Below are positions 1,214-30,732 of a DNA stretch of 30,732 nucleotides, in pieces. Numbering within the stretch: position 1 is the stretch's first letter; the number at the start of each line of letters is the position of its first letter. Origin of the DNA: a virus; the IMG/VR virus record IMGVR_UViG_3300046005_002613, positions 1 to 30,732 of that record; one strand, written 5' to 3'. A model generated the notes under the pieces. It searched no databases. It worked only from the letters and a program-made list of their open reading frames with translations, and had not been told where the DNA came from. The translations under genes and the position numbers were made by a program.

Positions 1214-1741
1214 TTAGAAAACTCTTCTGTTATTTCTTTTTACTGTATAATTAACAAAGTTTTTTATACCCTTTGTTGATTCGATTAATCCATAAACTAC
1301 CCTTTCAAAATAACTAAGTATCCCCTCTTTTATTGGATCCTTGTATATAACATTAGATAAGCTTCTTCTTAATATTTCATATCTATATTCAAATCCATTA
1401 TAAAGATCATCATTTACGCTATCCCTTATATCATAAATATTTTGGGTGGGATCAAAATCATAATATCTTCTATCTACCGTAGTTTTTGATAGTTCCCTCA
1501 TAATTCTTTTATAGTCAGATGCAGATTCACACGGGGAATACTTATATTCTCCATTAGCGTTAGAAATTATACTTCTACATCCGGTACATCCAATATTATA
1601 TGCCCTAGTATTAGCTAAATCCGCAGTATTGTATAATTCATTAGCTTCGTGAAAACTAGTATTGGTCGTTTTAGGCTTTATCCCATTAATAGAATATTTT
1701 TGTCCCTTATTATCATCGAAAAATGGAGAATAGTTTTGCAT
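1214..1741 (-). CDS. Hypothetical protein in baseplate wedge operon
   Basis: A 175-aa protein whose ATG overlaps the stop of the gp6-like gene as TAATG, so the two are translationally coupled. I do not recognise the family. It is hydrophilic and Tyr/Asn/Arg-rich. It has a CxxC pair (IGCTGCRS) near residues 52-55 and a third Cys (SPCES) near residue 71, which could bind a metal but need not. The C-terminus is basic (TVKRNNRRVF). No signal peptide or membrane helix is seen. Being wedged between the gp6-like gene and another structural gene argues for a small virion or baseplate-assembly protein. This is inference from position only. Confidence 0.75.
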   Translation of the reverse strand: MQNYSPFFDDNKGQKYSINGIKPKTTNTSFHEANELYNTADLANTRAYNIGCTGCRSIISNANGEYKYSPCESASDYKRIMRELSKTTVDRRYYDFDPTQNIYDIRDSVNDDLYNGFEYRYEILRRSLSNVIYKDPIKEGILSYFERVVYGLIESTKGIKNFVNYTVKRNNRRVF

Positions 1742-3465
1742 TATTGTAAAGGTTTTGCTAATTGTGCTTTTAATTCTGTTGTTAATCCACTTCTAAAATT
1801 TACAGGTACAATAGAAGAAATCGATATATTTAATGGACCCTGTTTACCGTCACTTATGCCTTCAGTGTAATAGTTACCATTACGATCAGTCCATCCGCCT
1901 CTTAATATAACTAAATCGTTTCTACCTATTATAATATCTCCAAATTCATCCATCCCTATTACTGTATCTAATTGTGTTTGTGATACATTTGTAAGGGTTG
2001 ATACTAAAGCCTGATATTCCTCATTTTTTTGCCCGGTAAAGAAAAATGAAACAGAATCCACCCCTATAATAGGTTCTATTATAGCAATCATATCTGATTT
2101 TGGTATTCTATCTCTTCTTTTATTATTTAACATATAATCAGATATTTTTGATCTTATCTCATTTTTTATTGTTTCTGGATCATATCCCTCAAATATAATT
2201 AATACTACATTAGCTATATATTTCATAATCACAGGTTCTACTATTTTAACTACAGTAGTAGCTATCATAGATCCAGAATCCTGTATAACGTTTTCAATTT
2301 TGGTTTTCTGTGATAGAGTTAATAAAAACTCAGAAATAGCTATATTGAAATAGTCCTCATTAGTTGATAGATTTAGAGTCACATCAGGGACCAAATAGAT
2401 ATAAACAACGTTATCATCGTCAAGATATTCGTCATCAAATGTGGAAAATGCGTGGATTTGTGAAAACATACCAAATTTACTCAAAAAGATTTCATAATTT
2501 TCAGCGTTAGCAAAAACAAAAGATCTACTGGTTTTTGGTGCTATTAATTTTATAAGTTCTGTCGATTCAGGATTAGTACCAAATGTAGGATCCAATACAT
2601 TACTAATATTAAGATATAGATTCAAATCCAAATCGGTACCAAATAAATCGGTACCACCCGTAACAAATTTATATGTTAATGGATTTTCTTTAGTTGAATT
2701 ACTATTTCCTCCACTACCGGACGTTTGAAGATATTCTACCCTTATTCTAGCACCACTCTGCGGCATTTTTCCAGAATTTGAATTGCCAAAAAATACATCA
2801 AGACCTTCCTGTATTCCTCCTCTTACCAGATATCCCTTCGCTCCCAATGGAATATCATAAAATGAATCATATCTTTTCCATTTTTCTTCGTTTACGTAAA
2901 CATCAACATAAAATTGATCTATGTAAGCACCAGCACTAGAAGGTAGATTAAAACTTTGCAAAGGAAGACCTGTTCCAGTTACGGTAACATTTTCAAAAGT
3001 TCCTTGTGCAATTTTAGCATTTAATGAATTTCCTCTAACTAAAGGTAAAGTTATCTGTGAACTACCAAATCTAATGGAATAAATTTTACCATTCTGTAAA
3101 CATCTAACCTGCGTATTATTTTTTATGATAACAGATCCACCACCAACCTCTCCATCTCTGGCATTCCAAGAAATCCCTATTTCCCCTTGTGCAGCTGATG
3201 CTCTTCCGGGATCATATCCAGCAATCCTGGCCAAACTTCGAATAGAATAATCTCTAGTTGCTTGATAAATATTTAATTCTGTTATAGAATCTTCTATAAA
3301 ATATAAAATAAATTGTGATATATTTTGCAAAACAAATAATATTTGTCCCCATGCAGATGCAGCAGTAAATACATTAGCAGTTTGGTTATAGGTCGATTGC
3401 AAAAAATTAAACGTATCGTTTAAAAGACCATTAATAAGTACATTATTTTTCTTGAATATATTCAT
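1741..3465 (-). CDS. 6: Baseplate wedge protein, gp6/baseplate-J-like
   Basis: A 574-aa protein, somewhat shorter than T4 gp6 (about 660 aa). In T4, gp6 forms the inner ring of baseplate wedges around the hub, working with gp25 and gp53. The N-terminal part (about 1-100) contains helical segments then SLARIAGYDPGRASAAQGEIGISW, the kind of sequence that opens J/gp6 proteins (an early helical arm, then the segment with a small-residue turn leading into beta structure). The middle (100-280) is beta-rich; the C-terminal half has the alternating alpha/beta pattern expected of the family (e.g. FEGYDPETIKNEIRSKISDY near 430-450, then RDRIPKSDMIAIIEPIIGVD). It follows the gp25-like gene by 10 bp, the same pairing as in other contractile tails. 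The start follows TAATTAAATTAAA with no Shine-Dalgarno. The family call rests on pattern and context, not alignment. Confidence 0.75.
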   Translation of the reverse strand: MNIFKKNNVLINGLLNDTFNFLQSTYNQTANVFTAASAWGQILFVLQNISQFILYFIEDSITELNIYQATRDYSIRSLARIAGYDPGRASAAQGEIGISWNARDGEVGGGSVIIKNNTQVRCLQNGKIYSIRFGSSQITLPLVRGNSLNAKIAQGTFENVTVTGTGLPLQSFNLPSSAGAYIDQFYVDVYVNEEKWKRYDSFYDIPLGAKGYLVRGGIQEGLDVFFGNSNSGKMPQSGARIRVEYLQTSGSGGNSNSTKENPLTYKFVTGGTDLFGTDLDLNLYLNISNVLDPTFGTNPESTELIKLIAPKTSRSFVFANAENYEIFLSKFGMFSQIHAFSTFDDEYLDDDNVVYIYLVPDVTLNLSTNEDYFNIAISEFLLTLSQKTKIENVIQDSGSMIATTVVKIVEPVIMKYIANVVLIIFEGYDPETIKNEIRSKISDYMLNNKRRDRIPKSDMIAIIEPIIGVDSVSFFFTGQKNEEYQALVSTLTNVSQTQLDTVIGMDEFGDIIIGRNDLVILRGGWTDRNGNYYTEGISDGKQGPLNISISSIVPVNFRSGLTTELKAQLAKPLQ

Positions 3466-3475
3466 TTTAATTTAA

Positions 3476-3847
3476 TTATGTTAATTTTAGTGATACTAGT
3501 GGACTTAAAGCTCCATCCTTAGGTATACTAAAATCTAAAGTTGCAATATCTCTTAAGCTACCTACAAAAAATTTAAGATTATAAGTCCCACCAAGTATTG
3601 CAAATAATGGAACATATGCCTTTAGATATAAATCAAGTTCTTTCTTTATACTGGCCTCAGATAAATCCAAATTGAAAATAAGATCCTCCAGATTTAATCC
3701 AAATTTAGGATCACCTAATACTTCTCCTTTATTAGTAAGTAATAGCATTTTTAATTGGCCTGTACATATTTCTATCGGATCAGTAGTTTCTAGCTGATAT
3801 GGGTTGTAATTAGGATCTTGGGGATCTCTATTATAAATTTCTCTCAT
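3476..3847 (-). CDS. 25: Baseplate wedge protein, gp25-like (GPW/gp25 family)
   Basis: A 123-aa protein, close to T4 gp25 (132 aa). The family forms part of the baseplate inner ring and is thought to nucleate sheath assembly; despite the old name it is not expected to be an active lysozyme in tails. The hallmark is the central stretch ICTGQLKMLLLTNKGEVLGDPKFGLNLEDLIF (about residues 27-58, quoted here in pieces): a helix, LLLTNKGE, then GDPKFGLNLEDLIF, matching the family pattern of 'LLTPKGER...PDFG..L..LLF'. The rest is a helical stretch and a beta-rich tail. It opens the last operon of the window, after a terminator (3887-3925) and with a GATATATA motif only 4 bp before the ATG. The gp6-like gene follows. 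Confidence 0.85.
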   Translation of the reverse strand: MREIYNRDPQDPNYNPYQLETTDPIEICTGQLKMLLLTNKGEVLGDPKFGLNLEDLIFNLDLSEASIKKELDLYLKAYVPLFAILGGTYNLKFFVGSLRDIATLDFSIPKDGALSPLVSLKLT

Positions 3848-3945: not shown

Positions 3946-4728
3946 TTAATTCCACTGCAAGAAATAGCTTGGGGTATTTTCATTATTTATCATTTCCATA
4001 ACTTCCGTTAATTCTGCATCTCCAGTAGCTCTTATATCAGCAGTATTGATAGTAACCCCACCAGGAAGAGTATAATTAAACACAGATAGCATATTAGCTA
4101 ATGCGATTTTAGATTTGGCTATACAATATCTAACAAATAATTCATCATCATATAATGCATCTTCATTTATAGCAACAAAACATCTTACTGAAACATCCAT
4201 TCCACCAATAGTAGCACTCTCTGATCCTTGCGCTGATCCAGTTCCGGATCTGCTTGGATCTCTTCCCTGTATAGTTAGATATTTAGTATTTTTGTTATAT
4301 TTAAATGCAAACGTATTCAATAAATATGCTTTTGCTAGGTCAAAATATGAATACATAACCGTACGATAAACTAAATTATCCCCGACAAAAGGGGAAAGCA
4401 TTAATTCAGATCCTAGTAATTTGGAATCACTAAAATCCCTATCAGGATTACCAGATATACCATAACTACCTGCTTCTCTAACATCATATACACTTATTAT
4501 TGTAGATGGTAATTTTATCTGTCTGGTTCTTTTAAACTCCGGATGTCTAAATATATCATTTGCTATTATAAATACTCTATCCTCTACTGCATATTGGTAG
4601 TTATCATAAAACCAGTTTCTTGCTCTTTTTATGATTCTTTCTACTTCAGTTGGATTCAAGTTATATGGCAATGCACAGCTAAATGATAGCGAATCTTGTA
4701 TTTCTTGTACTAATTCCTTTTCTGTCAT
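3946..4728 (-). CDS. Virion structural protein, possibly neck/connector-type
   Basis: A 260-aa protein and the last gene before a terminator. The N-terminal 60 residues are helical with ERIIKRARNWFYDNYQYA; then RTRQIKLPSTIISVYDVREAG reads as a beta-strand segment with a 'lysine-leucine-proline' turn. The C-terminal part has a helix (VRYCIAKSKIALANMLSVF) followed by YTLPGGVTINTADI. This layout (short helical start, 'P..I..VY.V', 'YC.A..K...A..L..F...LPGGV..N...I...A..E') resembles a structural protein widely found in T4-like marine phages that I recall as neck or connector-associated, but I cannot confirm this without a profile search. There are no catalytic motifs or membrane segments. It lies 11 bp after the amidoligase-like gene. 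Confidence 0.7.
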   Translation of the reverse strand: MTEKELVQEIQDSLSFSCALPYNLNPTEVERIIKRARNWFYDNYQYAVEDRVFIIANDIFRHPEFKRTRQIKLPSTIISVYDVREAGSYGISGNPDRDFSDSKLLGSELMLSPFVGDNLVYRTVMYSYFDLAKAYLLNTFAFKYNKNTKYLTIQGRDPSRSGTGSAQGSESATIGGMDVSVRCFVAINEDALYDDELFVRYCIAKSKIALANMLSVFNYTLPGGVTINTADIRATGDAELTEVMEMINNENTPSYFLQWN

Positions 4729-4739
4729 ATCAGTATATT

Positions 4740-6146
4740 TTATTGATTGGTATTTCTAAATTTGGGAACTAGAAAATTGGTATTATCATTTTTTAATCTA
4801 TTATCAGTAATAAATCTGGTCATTCTCATTTCACTTTTTCCTTTAACCATTAATGTTTCTTTACTCAATTCTGAATTTTCACCAACCATACCAGCTCTAA
4901 ATACCCCGCCGGTAACTTTACAATCTATATTTTTTCCTTCACAATCTATAAAACAATCTTTAAGCTCATTGGTAAATTCACATATAGTAGCTTTTATCTT
5001 CGATGAATATACAGTGGTTCCGGCAAAAATATACGATTCATCTATAGATGATTTTTTTATATCGCAATTATATATGTTGCAGTTTCTTATAGTTCCGTTT
5101 TTTATATCGCATGCGATCAAATCTACATTACTGATATTAAAAGCTCCCCTACTTCTTGCTTCTTTAATCTGATATCTACCTGTAGTAGTATCATAATTAA
5201 AATACCCTTCCGTTATGTTGCCTTCTATTATCAGATCAAAAATTTTATCTCTTATAGCCGGAAAATACGTTTTTATATTTTCCTCGAATCCTTTTAAATC
5301 GACAAAAACATGGAAATCTGGATAGCTTTTAAAAAAGAATGCTGGATCGCTGAAAGATCTAACTACCTTAGTATACTTAGCCATCATTTTTTGTAACGTT
5401 GCTAGATCATTTTTATCATATCCAGATATTCTATGACTTAACAGATCATATAAATATAATATGATATAATCTATTACCTCTCTTATATCCTTTATTTTTT
5501 TCTGATAATCACGATTACCAAGATATCTAAATTCTATATAGCCCTTTGGTATTTTTGTGAAATTAACACCATAATACTTATCCTCAGGTACCCTGTACAT
5601 TTTTGGATCTATCGATGTAATATTTTCAAGTATAGAAAATCTATTTATAGGAAGTACCTTTTTAATGGATTTAGCATAAACGTTCTTTTCTCTAGTCCCA
5701 AATTTAGAATATATCAATTCCTCATCAAGGCCAAGTATAAATTTCAATTTATCGAGATTTTCTATTTTATCCTTTACATCTCTGCGGGTTTTATCAAAGC
5801 TTACCGAAAATTGAAATGCACATTTATCTGTAGTCCAGCCGTTTTCGTCTATCCATTTTAATATTTTAATCAATATCGGAATAGCCTCCATATATGAAAG
5901 AGGACCAGTAATTAATTCCATCATTTTATTACCACCTGAATAATCAGGTTCCAATTTAAAATTATTGGCATCAACTAATATATCAGAGTGATATTTCTCA
6001 GAAACTACTACTTTTTTTTTGACTAAACTAGATAATGACTCAGCAGCCCGGCCTTTTAAAAGATCAGTATAAAATTCAAACTCGAATCCGATAACGGAAG
6101 AGCTGAGAGCATTAAGTTTATCAAAATGTGTTCTATTATCAGGCAT
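4740..6146 (-). CDS. Amidoligase-like enzyme (glutamine-synthetase fold) with C-terminal beta-helix
   Basis: A 468-aa protein. Residues 1-310 show motif order of the amidoligase_2 / COOH-NH2 ligase family: GFEFEF (20-25) as first acidic strand, LEPDYSGGNKMMELITGPL (65-83) matching the family 'D.S....E.vTpPl' block, a long helix then CAFQFSVSFD (109-118), GVNFTKIPKGYIEFRYLG (193-210) as the 'vN....tiEfR' block. Such enzymes join carboxyl and amine groups using ATP, often modifying peptides, proteins or cell-wall precursors. One expected histidine pair ('HvH') is replaced here by FQFSV, so activity is uncertain. Residues about 334-435 are a run of short I/C/N-rich turns (CDIKNGTIRNCNIYNCDIKK) like a right-handed beta-helix or pentapeptide-type stack. 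Its ATG overlaps the S1 gene stop by 8 bp (ATGCCTGA). Substrate unknown. Confidence 0.65.
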   Translation of the reverse strand: MPDNRTHFDKLNALSSSVIGFEFEFYTDLLKGRAAESLSSLVKKKVVVSEKYHSDILVDANNFKLEPDYSGGNKMMELITGPLSYMEAIPILIKILKWIDENGWTTDKCAFQFSVSFDKTRRDVKDKIENLDKLKFILGLDEELIYSKFGTREKNVYAKSIKKVLPINRFSILENITSIDPKMYRVPEDKYYGVNFTKIPKGYIEFRYLGNRDYQKKIKDIREVIDYIILYLYDLLSHRISGYDKNDLATLQKMMAKYTKVVRSFSDPAFFFKSYPDFHVFVDLKGFEENIKTYFPAIRDKIFDLIIEGNITEGYFNYDTTTGRYQIKEARSRGAFNISNVDLIACDIKNGTIRNCNIYNCDIKKSSIDESYIFAGTTVYSSKIKATICEFTNELKDCFIDCEGKNIDCKVTGGVFRAGMVGENSELSKETLMVKGKSEMRMTRFITDNRLKNDNTNFLVPKFRNTNQ

Positions 6147-7296
6147 CTACTATTTTAACGAATATTTTTCCACCTATTACATCTACCTCGTAAGGTATAA
6201 CTGTAATATCGTCATTAACTCTAATATCATTTCCTCTTTTTCCCAATTTATCCTGAGGTACTAATGCTAGAATTCCAAGCTTTGTTATTTCTACTAAAGC
6301 CCCATTTTTTCTTTTATGTTTAACTTTTGCGCTGAACTCTTCAATGGTTCCATCGTATATGCCTGCTTCTAGTTCTTGTAGAATTATATTTTTCTCCAAT
6401 GGTCTATCTAAAGTTAATGTTAATCTGTTATTGTCCTTTATTTCCTTAACATAGAACTCTATTTCTAATCCAGGAGATAAACTTGCCAAAGGATTAGCAT
6501 CATTAAATTCACTTTTATGTATAAGTCCAGTATAAACGCTATCCCATTCAACAAAAACACCAAAATCACTAGTACCTGTAATATATCCTCTATATTTTTT
6601 AGTTAAATCGAGTTCTTGTATTTTAGTATCCATTATTCTATTAAGATATTTTTTATACGAAACTATGAAAATATCCTTAGCTTCGATATATCCTTCTATC
6701 ATAACGTGCATTTCTTTTCCGATGTATGATTCGAAATCAGTAATTTTATTAGCAGCAGCTAAAGATCCAGGTAGGAAACATTTAATACCAGAAAGTTCTG
6801 CTATGTATCCTCCCTTATTAACGCTTAATATTTTTATTAGATATGCCTTACTCTCTTTCTTAATTTCTTCGAATAATTCTATTCTTAAATTATGCATATA
6901 ATACTCGATAATGGATCCACTATAATTTCCATTTATTCTTCTTACCTTGGCTTTTAATTCTTCGCCCGGCATAAATCCAATTCCAGTAATGTTTAATTTT
7001 TCAGCATCCCTTCTTTCCCTTTTCAAATCTATGTAAATAGTTTGACCAGAAGCAGTTTGGGCTAAAGCTTCATCCTCTTTTAAGCTTATTATAGTACATA
7101 CATACACTTGACCATCAACAAGATCCTTAGATCCGAAGTCTGTCTGATCTCCATTTGTAAAATATAGATTACCGAGTTCTTCCGCATACTCATCATGGCA
7201 ATATATTTTAGATCCCTCCGGGGATTTAATTTTAGTATTTAAAGTTAAGCCATTTGGTAGGTCCCACTCGAAATTTTCTAAAGTTTCAGCATTCAT
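6139..7296 (-). CDS. Phage-encoded multi-S1-domain RNA-binding protein
   Basis: A 385-aa protein that reads as four consecutive S1 (OB-fold) units: about 59-135, 148-215, 232-298 and 308-383. Unit 3 is the clearest: YRGYITGTSDFGVFVEWDSV then GLIHKSEF, the classical S1 pattern 'G.V..I.dFGaFV.l..v.GLiH.SE'. Unit 2 has IKCFLPGSLA, as in ribosomal S1 repeats. Ribosomal S1 binds single-stranded, AU-rich mRNA leaders and helps initiation; bacterial S1 usually has four to six such domains. Here the protein lies inside a virion operon, headed by a GATATATA motif (7330-7337) and coupled to the amidoligase-like gene. The obvious guess is assistance to, or takeover of, translation of the phage's leaders, which lack Shine-Dalgarno sequences. 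Other single-strand RNA roles (RNase, polynucleotide phosphorylase-like) are unlikely as no catalytic domain is present. Confidence 0.85.
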   Translation of the reverse strand: MNAETLENFEWDLPNGLTLNTKIKSPEGSKIYCHDEYAEELGNLYFTNGDQTDFGSKDLVDGQVYVCTIISLKEDEALAQTASGQTIYIDLKRERRDAEKLNITGIGFMPGEELKAKVRRINGNYSGSIIEYYMHNLRIELFEEIKKESKAYLIKILSVNKGGYIAELSGIKCFLPGSLAAANKITDFESYIGKEMHVMIEGYIEAKDIFIVSYKKYLNRIMDTKIQELDLTKKYRGYITGTSDFGVFVEWDSVYTGLIHKSEFNDANPLASLSPGLEIEFYVKEIKDNNRLTLTLDRPLEKNIILQELEAGIYDGTIEEFSAKVKHKRKNGALVEITKLGILALVPQDKLGKRGNDIRVNDDITVIPYEVDVIGGKIFVKIVDA

Positions 7297-9680: not shown

Positions 9681-12005
9681 TTATACAAAATCATTTTTAT
9701 CTGAATTAAATCCATCAGTACTTATATTATACTTAGTATCAGGTTTTAAGTTTCCTAAATCTATTGGAGGTTTAGCTATAAAATCACCAATCGTAGTAGG
9801 ATATATCCTTCCCATATTCCTTGCTCTATTATCTATAGTATTTTCTACTGGCTTATATACAGGTTCAGGTTTTTGAGTGAATGTATTACTTGGATCCCTT
9901 AATTCACCATCAGAAGATATTTTAGAAACTTTAGTATACATAGAATTATTATCAATATTTACTGGATATGGATTAAAATCACCGTTTGTATAAACGCTTT
10001 CTGAATCTATTGATCCTCTTTGTATAGTTTTATCATCATAAGCTTTATCATTAATTCCTCTATAAATACGTTCGGGTGCTCCTAAATCAGGTCCAGGATT
10101 AGTCGGATATACATCACCGCTTGGAACTGAGTATATTCTATCAGGCACTCCCAAATCAGGTCCAGGATTAGTTGGATATACATCACCCGATGGTGCTGGG
10201 TATATTCTATCAGGTACTCCCAAATCAGGTCCAGGATTGGTTGGATATACATCACCTGCTGGTACTGGATATACTCTACTAGGAACACCTAAATCAGGTC
10301 CAGGATTAGTTGGATATACATCACCCGATGGTGCTGAGTATATTCTATCAGGTACTCCCAAATCAGGTCCAGGATTAGTTGGATATACATCACCTGCTGG
10401 TTTACTATAAATTCGTTCAGGTATACCTAGATCTTTACCTGGATTTGTTGGATATACATCACCAATCGGTGCTTTGTATACTCTTTCAGGCAATCCTAAA
10501 TCTTTACCAGGATTAGTTGGATATACATCACCCTTAGGTGCTGGATATACCCTTTCAGCAGGCCCTCCTAATCCCATAGATTGCGGATTTGGCAAAGTAG
10601 TATTTTTAAATCCTGCTTCTACACCAGAAAGGCCATTTAAGAAATTCTGAGCACTATTATACGAAAGATTAGTCATTAGTTCGCTTGGATTAAAACTATA
10701 CACATTACCCATAAGTAATTTATCAATTCCTGCTACATTAGGTTTGATAAAGCTAGCTACACCTTCATTTATTAGATCATTTACAGAGTTACTTATAAAG
10801 TTAGTAAGTAATTCACCGCCCAATGAAATTATATCATCGCTATTAATAGGATTCTTTTGTACCGACGTTCTAGCAGAATCCCATCCATCACCGATTATCA
10901 ATGGTTTACCATCAGTTCTTATATTTGGATACTGATTTCTCATTCTAACTTTACCGACGTGAATTTTAAATTTTTGTCCTTCCGGATCAGCTGTAGAACT
11001 CCCGTTGCTTATCGATACTTTTAATGGTGTACTTTCAGTAAAATCAAATTCGCAATTTCTACACTCGAATACAAGCATAGGCTTTATACCTGATGTATCC
11101 TGTTGATTTTTTAAAAATGAAAGATCACTATCTATTCCCGATTTATTTATAACATTACCAACAAAAGAATTAAACACACTGGATGGACTGAAATTAGACT
11201 TACCAAATTCGGTATTTTGTTCTCCGATTACTCCGAGATTACTACCTGGATTATTACCAGAACCTAATAAACTAGATAAATCATCAATTGCAGTTAATGC
11301 TGTTGATGATCCTATTAATCTTGATGTTTTGAAAAAATTTCTAATTTCAGAAACAAAAATGTACATAGTAAATTTTCTAAGATTTCTTGGAAGTAATTCT
11401 CTCATATTATCATAATCAAACGTTGCAGTATTATATAGATCTGCAAGTGCAGTCATTCTTAAATTTAATGATTCAAGAGTCGTAAATTCTAATACTTTTC
11501 CAGCTGTTCTTTGGGGATTAAAAGCAGTATATGCATTTTCTCCCTGTGATTGATATCCAGGTCTAGGAACTTTCATCATTTCATCAAGACCTGTTATTGA
11601 TTGTATAAACCATGGAGAATTAGTAAGCAAATCACTAAACGTAATACCAAATTGTTTAAGAGCATCAGCCCTTTTTCCGCCATTTATAAAATCAAATTCT
11701 CTTTGTTCTAAGTAACTAATAGCTGAATAATATGCTACGTCACCATCATTACCAGAGCTTTTTTGTGAATACTGTTCCTGTCCAAATGGGTTTGTACCAA
11801 ATAGTGTATTCTTATCGGTAAAATAACTGCCTTTTTTAAATAGTGGGCTTGGAGGTAATCCATCATCAGCATTGATAGGTAAACTACCAAAATCCACTAC
11901 TATTTTAAATCCCAAATATGTTGGATCTTCATAATTTCCTTGTTTCGAAAGATTAAATCCTTTTAGAAATAAGCTTCTTTGTTTATCTGTTGCTCCTAAT
12001 GACAT
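9681..12005 (-). CDS. Large virion/baseplate protein with seven proline-rich 23-residue repeats
   Basis: A 774-aa protein between the hub-like and spike genes. Residues 1-400 look like a folded structural domain: LEFTTLESLNLRMTALADLY, then LLPRNLRKFTMYIFVSEIRNF, then a segment with MLVFECRNCEFDFTES and FKIHVGKVRMRNQYP. The order 'LPRNLR.F.MYI.V.EIR' then a strand-rich 'C.FDF' block suggests a tail-tube-like or baseplate-tube fold, recalled from T4-like phages but not searched. Residues 485-645 are seven head-to-tail 23-residue units with core GDVYPTNPGPDLG and a following R(I/V)Y. A degenerate copy (GRIYPTTIGDFIAKPPIDLG) lies near residues 735-755. The repeats probably form an extended proline-rich linker or polymer-binding rod. 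There is no signal peptide or catalytic motif. Confidence 0.75.
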   Translation of the reverse strand: MSLGATDKQRSLFLKGFNLSKQGNYEDPTYLGFKIVVDFGSLPINADDGLPPSPLFKKGSYFTDKNTLFGTNPFGQEQYSQKSSGNDGDVAYYSAISYLEQREFDFINGGKRADALKQFGITFSDLLTNSPWFIQSITGLDEMMKVPRPGYQSQGENAYTAFNPQRTAGKVLEFTTLESLNLRMTALADLYNTATFDYDNMRELLPRNLRKFTMYIFVSEIRNFFKTSRLIGSSTALTAIDDLSSLLGSGNNPGSNLGVIGEQNTEFGKSNFSPSSVFNSFVGNVINKSGIDSDLSFLKNQQDTSGIKPMLVFECRNCEFDFTESTPLKVSISNGSSTADPEGQKFKIHVGKVRMRNQYPNIRTDGKPLIIGDGWDSARTSVQKNPINSDDIISLGGELLTNFISNSVNDLINEGVASFIKPNVAGIDKLLMGNVYSFNPSELMTNLSYNSAQNFLNGLSGVEAGFKNTTLPNPQSMGLGGPAERVYPAPKGDVYPTNPGKDLGLPERVYKAPIGDVYPTNPGKDLGIPERIYSKPAGDVYPTNPGPDLGVPDRIYSAPSGDVYPTNPGPDLGVPSRVYPVPAGDVYPTNPGPDLGVPDRIYPAPSGDVYPTNPGPDLGVPDRIYSVPSGDVYPTNPGPDLGAPERIYRGINDKAYDDKTIQRGSIDSESVYTNGDFNPYPVNIDNNSMYTKVSKISSDGELRDPSNTFTQKPEPVYKPVENTIDNRARNMGRIYPTTIGDFIAKPPIDLGNLKPDTKYNISTDGFNSDKNDFV
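10071..10553 (-). repeat. 7 x 69-bp in-frame tandem repeat within the 774-aa gene
   Basis: Seven units of exactly 69 bp (483 bp in all). The shared plus-strand string GGATATACATCACC begins at 10105, 10174, 10243, 10312, 10381, 10450 and 10519. Units nearer the left end (protein C-terminal side) are more alike; the two rightmost carry GKDLG instead of GPDLG. The period is a multiple of three, so all frames stay open across it, which explains the spurious overlapping open frame at 10082-10288. Confidence 0.95.
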
Positions 12006-21171: not shown

Positions 21172-22575
21172 TTATGCTCTGGATAAAAAGAGTTCTATTG
21201 CTTTTTGTCTGTATGCTAATTTATCATCCTTTATCTCCGGATTCTTTAAAGCTTCTTTTTTCCTGTCCAAAATAGAAGCGGGTAATATAGACTCGAATGT
21301 ATCTTTCAATATCTTTTTATCGGTTCTCCATTCTATAGGAAGATGCATAGCAAATCTAACTATATCCAAATTAAGAAAAGGTGATCTTAATTCCAAGGTA
21401 TGAGCCATTGACATCTTATCAAGTCTAGGTAAATGATAAAATGTTAATTCTTCAAATATATCTGATTTTTGTGAATCGTATTCATGTATCCTCGAATACC
21501 CACCAAATAATTCATCTGCTCCATCTCCGCTAATAACTATTCTAAAATCACTATGTTTACGAATAGCTTCAAATAAATGGTATTGCGGTATGACAGATCC
21601 CAAATCAATCGGGCTTTCATTCCATTTAGCATATATAAGAGCATTTTTACTACTATCCATAGAATAGCTTAGAAATTTTACGGGTGTGTCTAAATAAGCG
21701 CTTAAATCATTAATAAATGGGGTCTCTCCGTTCTCTATACTAAACCAAGTTACGTCTGAATTATTACCCTTAAGTATAGCAGCTATTATAGATGAATCGA
21801 GTCCTCCTGATACTAAAATTGAAATTGGGTAATTTTTAGAAACCAATCTATTTTCTACGCTTTCTACCATCTTATCCCAAAGCCAATTCATATGGGTTTC
21901 GTAATCAGCATTAACTAATTCAGGTATAGGCGAATTCCAAACTACGTAATATTCATAATATATATGATCAAACATAGGCGATGCCATATTATACGAATAT
22001 ATGTTATTAGGTAATAATCTTTTTATATTTTCATATGGTGTTCTGTTATCCTTATTATATCCCCATTTTCTAATTACACTAATATATTTTTCGTCCATAA
22101 TAGATTTTGGTGTATATAAACCTTTTATCTCTGAACATATCTCGCCTAGCTCATTTTTATATAAACATTTCTTTCCAAGAGGATCGGTAAATGCTAAAAC
22201 ATCCTGAGTTTTCGTATCGTATATTACAATTGCCCAAAACCCGTCCCATCCTATAATATGTGGGATATACATAGCACTAAAAAATTCTAAACTATTTTTG
22301 CTATATCCAGAAAACAGATTACATAGATATTCTGTATCAGATGAAAATAATTCAGTATCATAATTAAATATCTCACCATTAAACATCAAATAAATACCGT
22401 CGGATATCTCTATGGGTTGACTCCAATCATCACCATCAGAAGTTTGTATGGGTAATCTATGATGGCATAATGTTACACTACCGAATGTTTCCGATGATGA
22501 TTCTATACCCCTATGTTTAATAGAATCAAAGACATCCTTATTATTTACTGCCGTTGTTAATAAAATTCCGCACAT
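21172..22575 (-). CDS. asnB: Asparagine synthetase-like, glutamine-hydrolysing amidotransferase
   Basis: A 467-aa protein, shorter than E. coli AsnB (554 aa) but with both halves. Residues 1-190 are a class II glutaminase: MCGIL with Cys2 as nucleophile, HHR (38-40), NGEIFNY (66-72), SDTEYL (79-84) and DGFWAI (111-116). Residues 230-460 are the ATP-pyrophosphatase synthetase part: VSGGLDSS (255-262), SGDGADELFGGY (349-360), then DKMSMAHTLELRSPFLN (386-402). All expected catalytic elements are present, so it is likely active. Family members make asparagine or amidate other carboxylates (for example cell-wall peptides or antibiotics); sequence does not show which. It follows the kinase gene by 3 bp and the two probably form one unit. 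Confidence 0.88.
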   Translation of the reverse strand: MCGILLTTAVNNKDVFDSIKHRGIESSSETFGSVTLCHHRLPIQTSDGDDWSQPIEISDGIYLMFNGEIFNYDTELFSSDTEYLCNLFSGYSKNSLEFFSAMYIPHIIGWDGFWAIVIYDTKTQDVLAFTDPLGKKCLYKNELGEICSEIKGLYTPKSIMDEKYISVIRKWGYNKDNRTPYENIKRLLPNNIYSYNMASPMFDHIYYEYYVVWNSPIPELVNADYETHMNWLWDKMVESVENRLVSKNYPISILVSGGLDSSIIAAILKGNNSDVTWFSIENGETPFINDLSAYLDTPVKFLSYSMDSSKNALIYAKWNESPIDLGSVIPQYHLFEAIRKHSDFRIVISGDGADELFGGYSRIHEYDSQKSDIFEELTFYHLPRLDKMSMAHTLELRSPFLNLDIVRFAMHLPIEWRTDKKILKDTFESILPASILDRKKEALKNPEIKDDKLAYRQKAIELFLSRA

Positions 22576-29818: not shown

Positions 29819-30732
29819 TTATCTTATTTGGAATTTTTTATCCAATGCTGAAGCGATAGCAGCCATATAATCGTTGCTATAACCTAATGTTGGTGTATTG
29901 GATATTTCCGTGTTTTCATTCTCGTCTAATTTTTGAACCCCTATTGGAGCTGTTCCAAGTTGACGTGTTGACCAGAAGTTTCTGATCTGGTATGGTGTAT
30001 CTAAATTCCAGGTGTGGCTTTGAGCAATAATTGATTGCTTGTGACCATCTGTAAGTGATTCCCATACTTTAGCATAATCTTCAGGAATTTCGTCTATAAA
30101 CTTAAGTCCAGTTTTATTAGTGTTTTCCTTTTCGTTAAGAACTTCTTCTTCTTTAGCCTCTTGTGTATTGGCTACTTGCTTCATTTTATTAGAAGCTTCA
30201 TTTATATCTGATTCAGTTTTTTGTGTTTTAACTGATTCTATCAAATTATCTATTTTACTTGTAAGATCTGTATAATCTCCACCAAAACCAGATTCGTTTA
30301 ATCCTGCTTCAGATGAAAGTTCTACGCCTTCTCTTAATGTTTCACTTGGTTTCATAGTGTTAGTATTTATACTTTCACTTATATATTCAGTATATGAAAT
30401 AGATTTTGTTAATCTCTCTGAAATATATTCGGAATAATCCAAACCTTTGTTAACATTTTCTGCTAAATAATTAGCATATTGTATATTTTTATTAACTGTC
30501 TCATCTAATGCTTCAGTCTTTTTAATTCCATTATTTAAATTTTCTGCAAGATACTCGGTATAAGCTATTCCTTTTTCTAAATTCTCACCTAGATATTCGC
30601 TATAAGCTATTCCTTTTTCTAAATTTTCACCTATGTATTCAGAATATTGTATATTCTGATCAACTTTCTCAGCAAGATATTTGGAATATTCTATACTTCT
30701 ATCAACACTTTCTGCAACATATTCAGAATTCT
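29819..30732 (-). CDS. 22: Prohead scaffold/core protein, gp22-position, partial (N-terminus beyond right edge)
   Basis: The frame is open from the right edge to the stop at 29819, 303 visible codons. A TTG at 30442 could be read as a start, but repeats continue upstream in frame. Visible part: nine 14-residue units (see repeat), then a polar region with candidate protease sites GLNES, LIES, INEAS and VLNEK, and a C-terminal block HTWNLDTPYQIRNFWSTRQL with two-helix character. Its position immediately before the capsid gene matches T4 gene 22, whose product forms the prohead core and is digested by protease gp21 during maturation. Helix-rich, acidic composition suits this. No sequence identity to T4 gp22 is claimed. 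Confidence 0.8.
   Translation of the reverse strand, partial: NSEYVAESVDRSIEYSKYLAEKVDQNIQYSEYIGENLEKGIAYSEYLGENLEKGIAYTEYLAENLNNGIKKTEALDETVNKNIQYANYLAENVNKGLDYSEYISERLTKSISYTEYISESINTNTMKPSETLREGVELSSEAGLNESGFGGDYTDLTSKIDNLIESVKTQKTESDINEASNKMKQVANTQEAKEEEVLNEKENTNKTGLKFIDEIPEDYAKVWESLTDGHKQSIIAQSHTWNLDTPYQIRNFWSTRQLGTAPIGVQKLDENENTEISNTPTLGYSNDYMAAIASALDKKFQIR
30353..30730 (-). repeat. Nine 14-residue (42-bp) tandem repeats in scaffold-like gene, continuing beyond the edge
   Basis: Exact 42-bp period over 378 bp. Representative unit YSEYLGENLEKGIA; variants include YTEYLAENLNNGIK, YANYLAENVNKGLD, YSEYISERLTKSIS and one poor unit (KTEALDETVNKNIQ). Units 3 and 4 from the right edge are nearly identical at DNA level, pointing to recent duplication. 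Each unit (except the poor one) has aromatic-x-x-aromatic then (L/I/V)xE. Confidence 0.95.

Follow-up and report, generated by a model that had tools for sequence, protein, structure and literature searches.

The 30,732-base IMG/VR virus record analysed here, referred to below as the window, raises the question of what a protein resembling amidoligases might be doing amid the genes for a phage baseplate. The gene in question (4740..6146, minus strand) runs from an ATG at 6146 to a stop at 4740, and its open reading frame, family and structure characterize the 468 aa product as an amidoligase-like protein fused to a pentapeptide-repeat helix. Relatives were recovered in >460 IMG/VR loci, with identities ranging from 81% down to about 30%, and the dN/dS (NG86) of the gene over close pairs with dS<1 is 0.02-0.06, similar to that of the neighboring wedge gene. 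Conservation on this scale together with such ratios indicates that neither the frame nor its motifs arose by chance, and, as judged by these substitution ratios, the gene is under strong purifying selection. Six deposited records of uncultured huge phages, 462-735 kb in size, carry the family (two are of the same size with identical match coordinates), and all carriers found are uncultured; genomes >634 kb have been placed in the Mahaphage clade with predicted Bacteroidetes hosts (Al-Shayeb et al., PMC7162821). Searches with the family profile (hmmsearch) recovered a single full-length copy in each record; an additional weak amidoligase-like match, to profile columns 181-255, was noted within a frame of 368 aa in a 642 kb phage (W03; LR756502.1 208756-208974).

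A first scan of 84,980 prokaryote genomes yielded no cellular homologues, and the sole match in a second scan of them was a 71-residue fragment of the gene at the end of a Burkholderiales MAG contig (L252:8001-8216) with bacterial chromosomal genes upstream. This lone fragment is probably a product of chimeric assembly; a cellular origin was accordingly set aside, and by these scans the gene is phage-restricted. No description of it was found in the published literature, most subscription journals and preprints lying outside the scope of that search. While the kind of enzyme is itself already known, the solo occurrence, the fusion to a pentapeptide helix and a His-to-Gln change distinguish this protein from known amidoligases.

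An AlphaFold model built from an 86-sequence alignment (pLDDT 86.7, pTM 0.79), which replaced a mediocre 19-sequence model with residues 155-207 unresolved, is of low confidence only in the C-terminal tail. It predicts a GS-like (amidoligase) domain in residues about 15-307 (5226..6104, minus strand), a right-handed pentapeptide-repeat helix in residues about 330-435 (4842..5159, minus strand) and a low-confidence tail formed by residues 436-468 plus the stop (4740..4841, minus strand); the C-terminal end reads KFRNTNQ in the window protein and ..FGNMNY in most of its clade. The original prediction of a GS-fold domain fused to a beta-helix hinged on such a fold in residues 15-300, and the model agrees with it, as do Foldseek searches. 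Against the PDB the best-ranked matches were glutamine synthetases (E 3e-5, probability 1.00, full-chain TM 0.28), followed by pentapeptide-repeat proteins, and among viral models an uncharacterised uncultured-phage protein matched over its full length (TM 0.83/0.88), with the next matches including many phage proteins named amidoligase, that of Atu_ph07 among them. The glutamine synthetase/glutamate-cysteine ligase fold is thus the best PDB match (1v4g at E 5e-3), although full-chain TM-scores are low (0.2-0.3) and the window protein has an additional C-terminal domain.

The Foldseek list also contains E. coli gamma-glutamylcysteine synthetase and, as GS-fold ligases include the glutamate-cysteine ligases, the protein could be conceived as a small-molecule ligase, that is, an auxiliary metabolic enzyme having nothing to do with the virion. 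We regard this as quite improbable: the gene is core rather than patchy in its clade and linked to tail genes, as described below, and no conserved metabolic partner gene is evident beside it.

The I/N/C-rich C-terminal stack, earlier described only as a beta-helix, can be specified further. Pentapeptide_4 of Pfam matches 55/86 members and the family profile matches the McbG-like, MfpA and Qnr structures in the PDB (E 3e-6), a PDB sequence search with the single window protein having given no match; on these profile matches and the model, the stack is specifically a pentapeptide-repeat (Rfr) helix. It resembles AlbG/McbG-like, MfpA and Qnr proteins in both profile and fold; however, unlike them it is short, single and fused to a ligase, and nothing suggests gyrase binding or DNA mimicry. 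Conservation is concentrated elsewhere in the protein, with 25 invariant columns in residues 15-300 and none in the helix.

At the sequence level, the comparison with PF12224 (Amidoligase_2) divides the family at the gathering cut-off of 22 bits: the window protein scores 17.2 bits, whereas orthologues at about 80% identity in five large records score 24.8-26.1 bits, and the profile is found at E<0.01 in 28/86 members. Moreover, the family profile matches the Atu_ph07 protein AUZ94978.1 (hhalign 97.6% probability, E=3e-12; hmmsearch E=9e-20), which itself scores 30.2 bits on PF12224, over the same cut-off. The aligned blocks are LEPD/FEPD, ELITGP/ELVSP, AFQFSV/GFHINI, R..N.YA.S and IEFRYLG/IEFRAVG. 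Neither LUZ24 gp18 nor E. coli GlnA was matched by sequence, and a direct sequence kinship to GS or to LUZ24 gp18 was therefore not retained. The phage members of PF12224 (AUZ94978.1, LUZ24 gp18, phiEco32) nevertheless have the GS-like fold in common with the window protein, and the motifs GxExE, E..(T/S)GP/SP, the H-strand and E-x-R recur in its family; unlike them, the window protein shows Gln112/Ser114, a C-terminal pentapeptide helix and no set of partner genes. Together, the GS-like fold, the phage proteins named 'amidoligase enzyme' as its nearest named structural relatives, and the profile matches favor an amide ligase.

The blocks named in the original prediction are all present and, together with KLEPDYSGG, map to a putative active site. 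GFEFEF (residues 20-25; 6072..6089, minus strand) contains the invariant E22 and E24, putative metal ligands; KLEPDYSGG (residues 64-72; 5931..5957, minus strand) contains the invariant D68 and S70 and a nearly invariant E66, and aligns with FEPDGS of Atu_ph07; ELITGPL (residues 77-83; 5898..5918, minus strand), with E77 and G81 invariant, aligns with VELVSP of the same protein; and KYYGVNF...IEFRYLG (residues 190-210; 5517..5579, minus strand), whose (Y)IEFRYLG portion spans residues 203-210, contributes K190, N195, E205, R207 and G210. Across 135 distinct members, the invariant residues comprise E22, E24, D68, S70, E77, G81, S116, E142, R152, Y157, K190, Y191, G193, N195, E205, R207, Y208 and G210, a pattern which again favors an amide ligase.

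The remaining strand, FQFSVSF (residues 111-117; 5796..5816, minus strand), is the putative metal/ATP strand and, as earlier noted, has FQFSV (residues 111-115) in place of the expected 'HvH'. Of the same 135 members, 72 have His and 63 Gln at column 112, and 73 have Asn and 62 Ser at column 114; one member (L032) is a Q/N intermediate. The window's clade thus lacks HxH, having Q112/S114, and the motif is HxN in the sister clade as well as in Atu_ph07. On a tree built without columns 112 and 114 a single H/Q change suffices (SH-aLRT 81), the long-branch member L158 falling on the Gln side with unsure placement. The presence of His in Atu_ph07 suggests that Gln112 is the derived state, and the single change on the tree indicates that the absence of HxH is a stable trait of the clade rather than decay. 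By analogy with GS, we take this strand to be the one carrying the n2-metal ligand His269 and the ATP contact His271; Gln can coordinate metal via its carbonyl oxygen. With one ligand long changed and its acidic partners all fixed, the site looks like a tuned rather than a decaying one, and the retention of the acidic and arginine motif residues in both clades argues for an active site that is working, or was until recently, as opposed to a degenerate structural protein.

The latter possibility, which was part of the original prediction, is that of a catalytically dead GS-fold protein serving as a structural or chaperone component of the tail, with the H-to-Q change marking the loss of activity. 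Replacement of the presumed metal ligand indeed weighs against an active ligase, pentapeptide helices are mostly non-catalytic, and a core gene strictly placed beside neck and wedge genes is what a structural part might look like. Yet, even over wide divergence, no acidic or Arg motif residue varies within the Gln clade, the conserved columns cluster in the GS domain and not in the helix, and dN/dS is not relaxed. A structural role of this kind is, in our estimation, unlikely, and we consider the ligase to be quite probably catalytically active.

The predicted baseplate setting is confirmed by the gene-neighborhood. Immediately downstream of the ligase gene lies a neck gene (head-tail adaptor Ad2-like; 3946..4728, minus strand; phrog_211 E=3e-7 and synteny), followed by genes for gp25-like (3476-3847) and gp6-like (1741-3465) baseplate wedge proteins recognized by homology (together 1741..3847, minus strand). 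On the 5' side are an S1-domain protein (6139..7296, minus strand; PF00575 E=2e-13), whose gene shares 8 bp with the beginning of the ligase gene, and genes for an OB-fold spike, a hub-like and a LysM-like protein. Only one PF00575 match is seen in the S1 protein, but more S1-like repeats are likely. The same region encodes a 774-aa protein (9681-12005, minus strand) in which near-identical units of ~23 aa follow one another (DVYPTNPGPDLGVPDRIYSAPSG) and which has no Pfam or PHROGs match. At the edge of the window, just upstream of a major-capsid-like gene, a protein running off the record (29819-30730, minus strand) has repeated 'YSEYLxENLxKGI'-like units and may be a scaffolding or head-core protein.

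Loci of the window's clade hold to a nearly fixed gene order, hub - spike - S1 - ligase - neck - gp25 - wedge. When wedge loci were collected independently of the ligase, through the wedge gene, and counted only where flank was enough, the ligase was present in 74/74 loci of this clade; a further wedge locus (L250) from an LR756500-type phage is without it within 10 kb, and LR756500 itself carries it at a distance of about 10 kb. By these counts the ligase is a core gene of the window's group. In the sister clade a tail or neck homologue occurs within 8 kb in 74/85 loci, often divergently oriented, with the wedge and S1 genes located elsewhere, and the copy in the 735 kb phage has no recognised tail neighbor within 8 kb. 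In most sister-clade loci the ligase is directly adjoined by a conserved small protein of ~130 aa (cluster 2; e.g. L146:7505-8002, minus strand), which is usually encoded on the opposite strand next to a u608-like gene and is a possible partner of the ligase. The Atu_ph07 relative, which also shares HxN with the sister clade and has the R..N.YA.S block, is two genes from the portal gene; counting from the portal (gp198), we place it within the cluster of CDS 170-215, which is rich in virion proteins (PMC6102473). The linkage in both clades, the single full-length copy and the location of this relative favor a ligase with a client in the tail, while the looser, often divergent arrangement in the sister clade and the 735 kb copy speak against one.

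The 8-bp overlap, seen in most near relatives, raises the alternative that the ligase modifies, RimK-style, the S1-domain protein translated along with it, or some other translation factor, in favor of phage translation, and S1 proteins have been noted among huge phages (PMC7162821). However, three loci (L073-L075) lack the upstream S1 gene and yet keep the ligase, and in the sister-clade genomes that carry S1 it is far from the ligase. We accordingly rejected this as the main reading and hold it to be very improbable. The S1 homologue found elsewhere in several sister-clade genomes, the 735 kb one included, is a diverged one.

A more serious contender is an active amidoligase directed at host cell-wall peptides or the cell surface, aiding lysis or superinfection exclusion, such a wall or surface role having been proposed, in a passage of PMC10580990 citing Iyer 2009, for the amidoligases of phiEco32 type and of Marvin. 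The phiEco32/LUZ24 amidoligase-GATase-ATP-grasp clusters likewise encode phage amidoligases, but they lie beside early genes and include COOH-NH2_lig and GATase, whereas the window ligase is solo and in a tail module. In a search that detected the LUZ24 positive control, the COOH-NH2 ligase (PF14395) was found in 0/26 huge-phage records, and GATase only as an AsnB-like gene, in 10/26. This gene encodes a glutamine-hydrolysing amidotransferase, an asparagine synthetase homologue recognized by homology in the structural-gene region of the window (21172..22575, minus strand); enzymes of the AsnB-like class are able to amidate wall peptides, and its co-occurrence with the ligase would suit a wall role. 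It is present in 10/10 large records of the window's clade and 0/16 sister-clade records, but this amounts to one phylogenetic split and is uninformative, and a functional tie between the two genes was not upheld. Neither a signal peptide nor a membrane segment is evident by eye in the window protein. In light of these points a wall client seems to us fairly unlikely, although we rank it ahead of the structural pseudoenzyme.

Fold, domain composition, conservation of the motifs, core status and linkage being established, the reading we place first is that of a solo, stand-alone ATP-dependent GS-fold enzyme acting on a virion client of the tail; we advance it tentatively, its chances falling somewhat short of even. 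ATP and Mg would be bound through E22/E24, E77, E205 and R207, with Gln112 replacing the usual His, and the enzyme would couple a carboxylate to a protein- or peptide-borne amine at the cost of ATP. The repeat helix and the C-terminal tail beyond it could form a docking arm for the client, a virion protein that would be modified or cross-linked during tail assembly. The ligase likely acts late in infection, and, given activity, a virion protein is about as probable a client as the cell wall and all others combined; core status and the linkage to tail and baseplate genes are what lead us to favor it. The stronger proposition, that a dedicated ATP-dependent ligase makes amide or isopeptide bonds on the huge phages' own contractile-tail proteins as a core gene of the tail module, is doubtful at this point.

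If true, this would amount to the covalent finishing of a phage tail by an enzyme. Among the largest phage genomes known are several in which the gene is conserved; if the enzyme is active, a dedicated ligase would chemically alter giant virions or their host cells. The pair of clades separated by the H-to-Q change offers natural material for testing the mechanism of GS-fold ligases, and the ligase provides a clear test case for interpreting uncharacterized core genes of uncultured huge phages.
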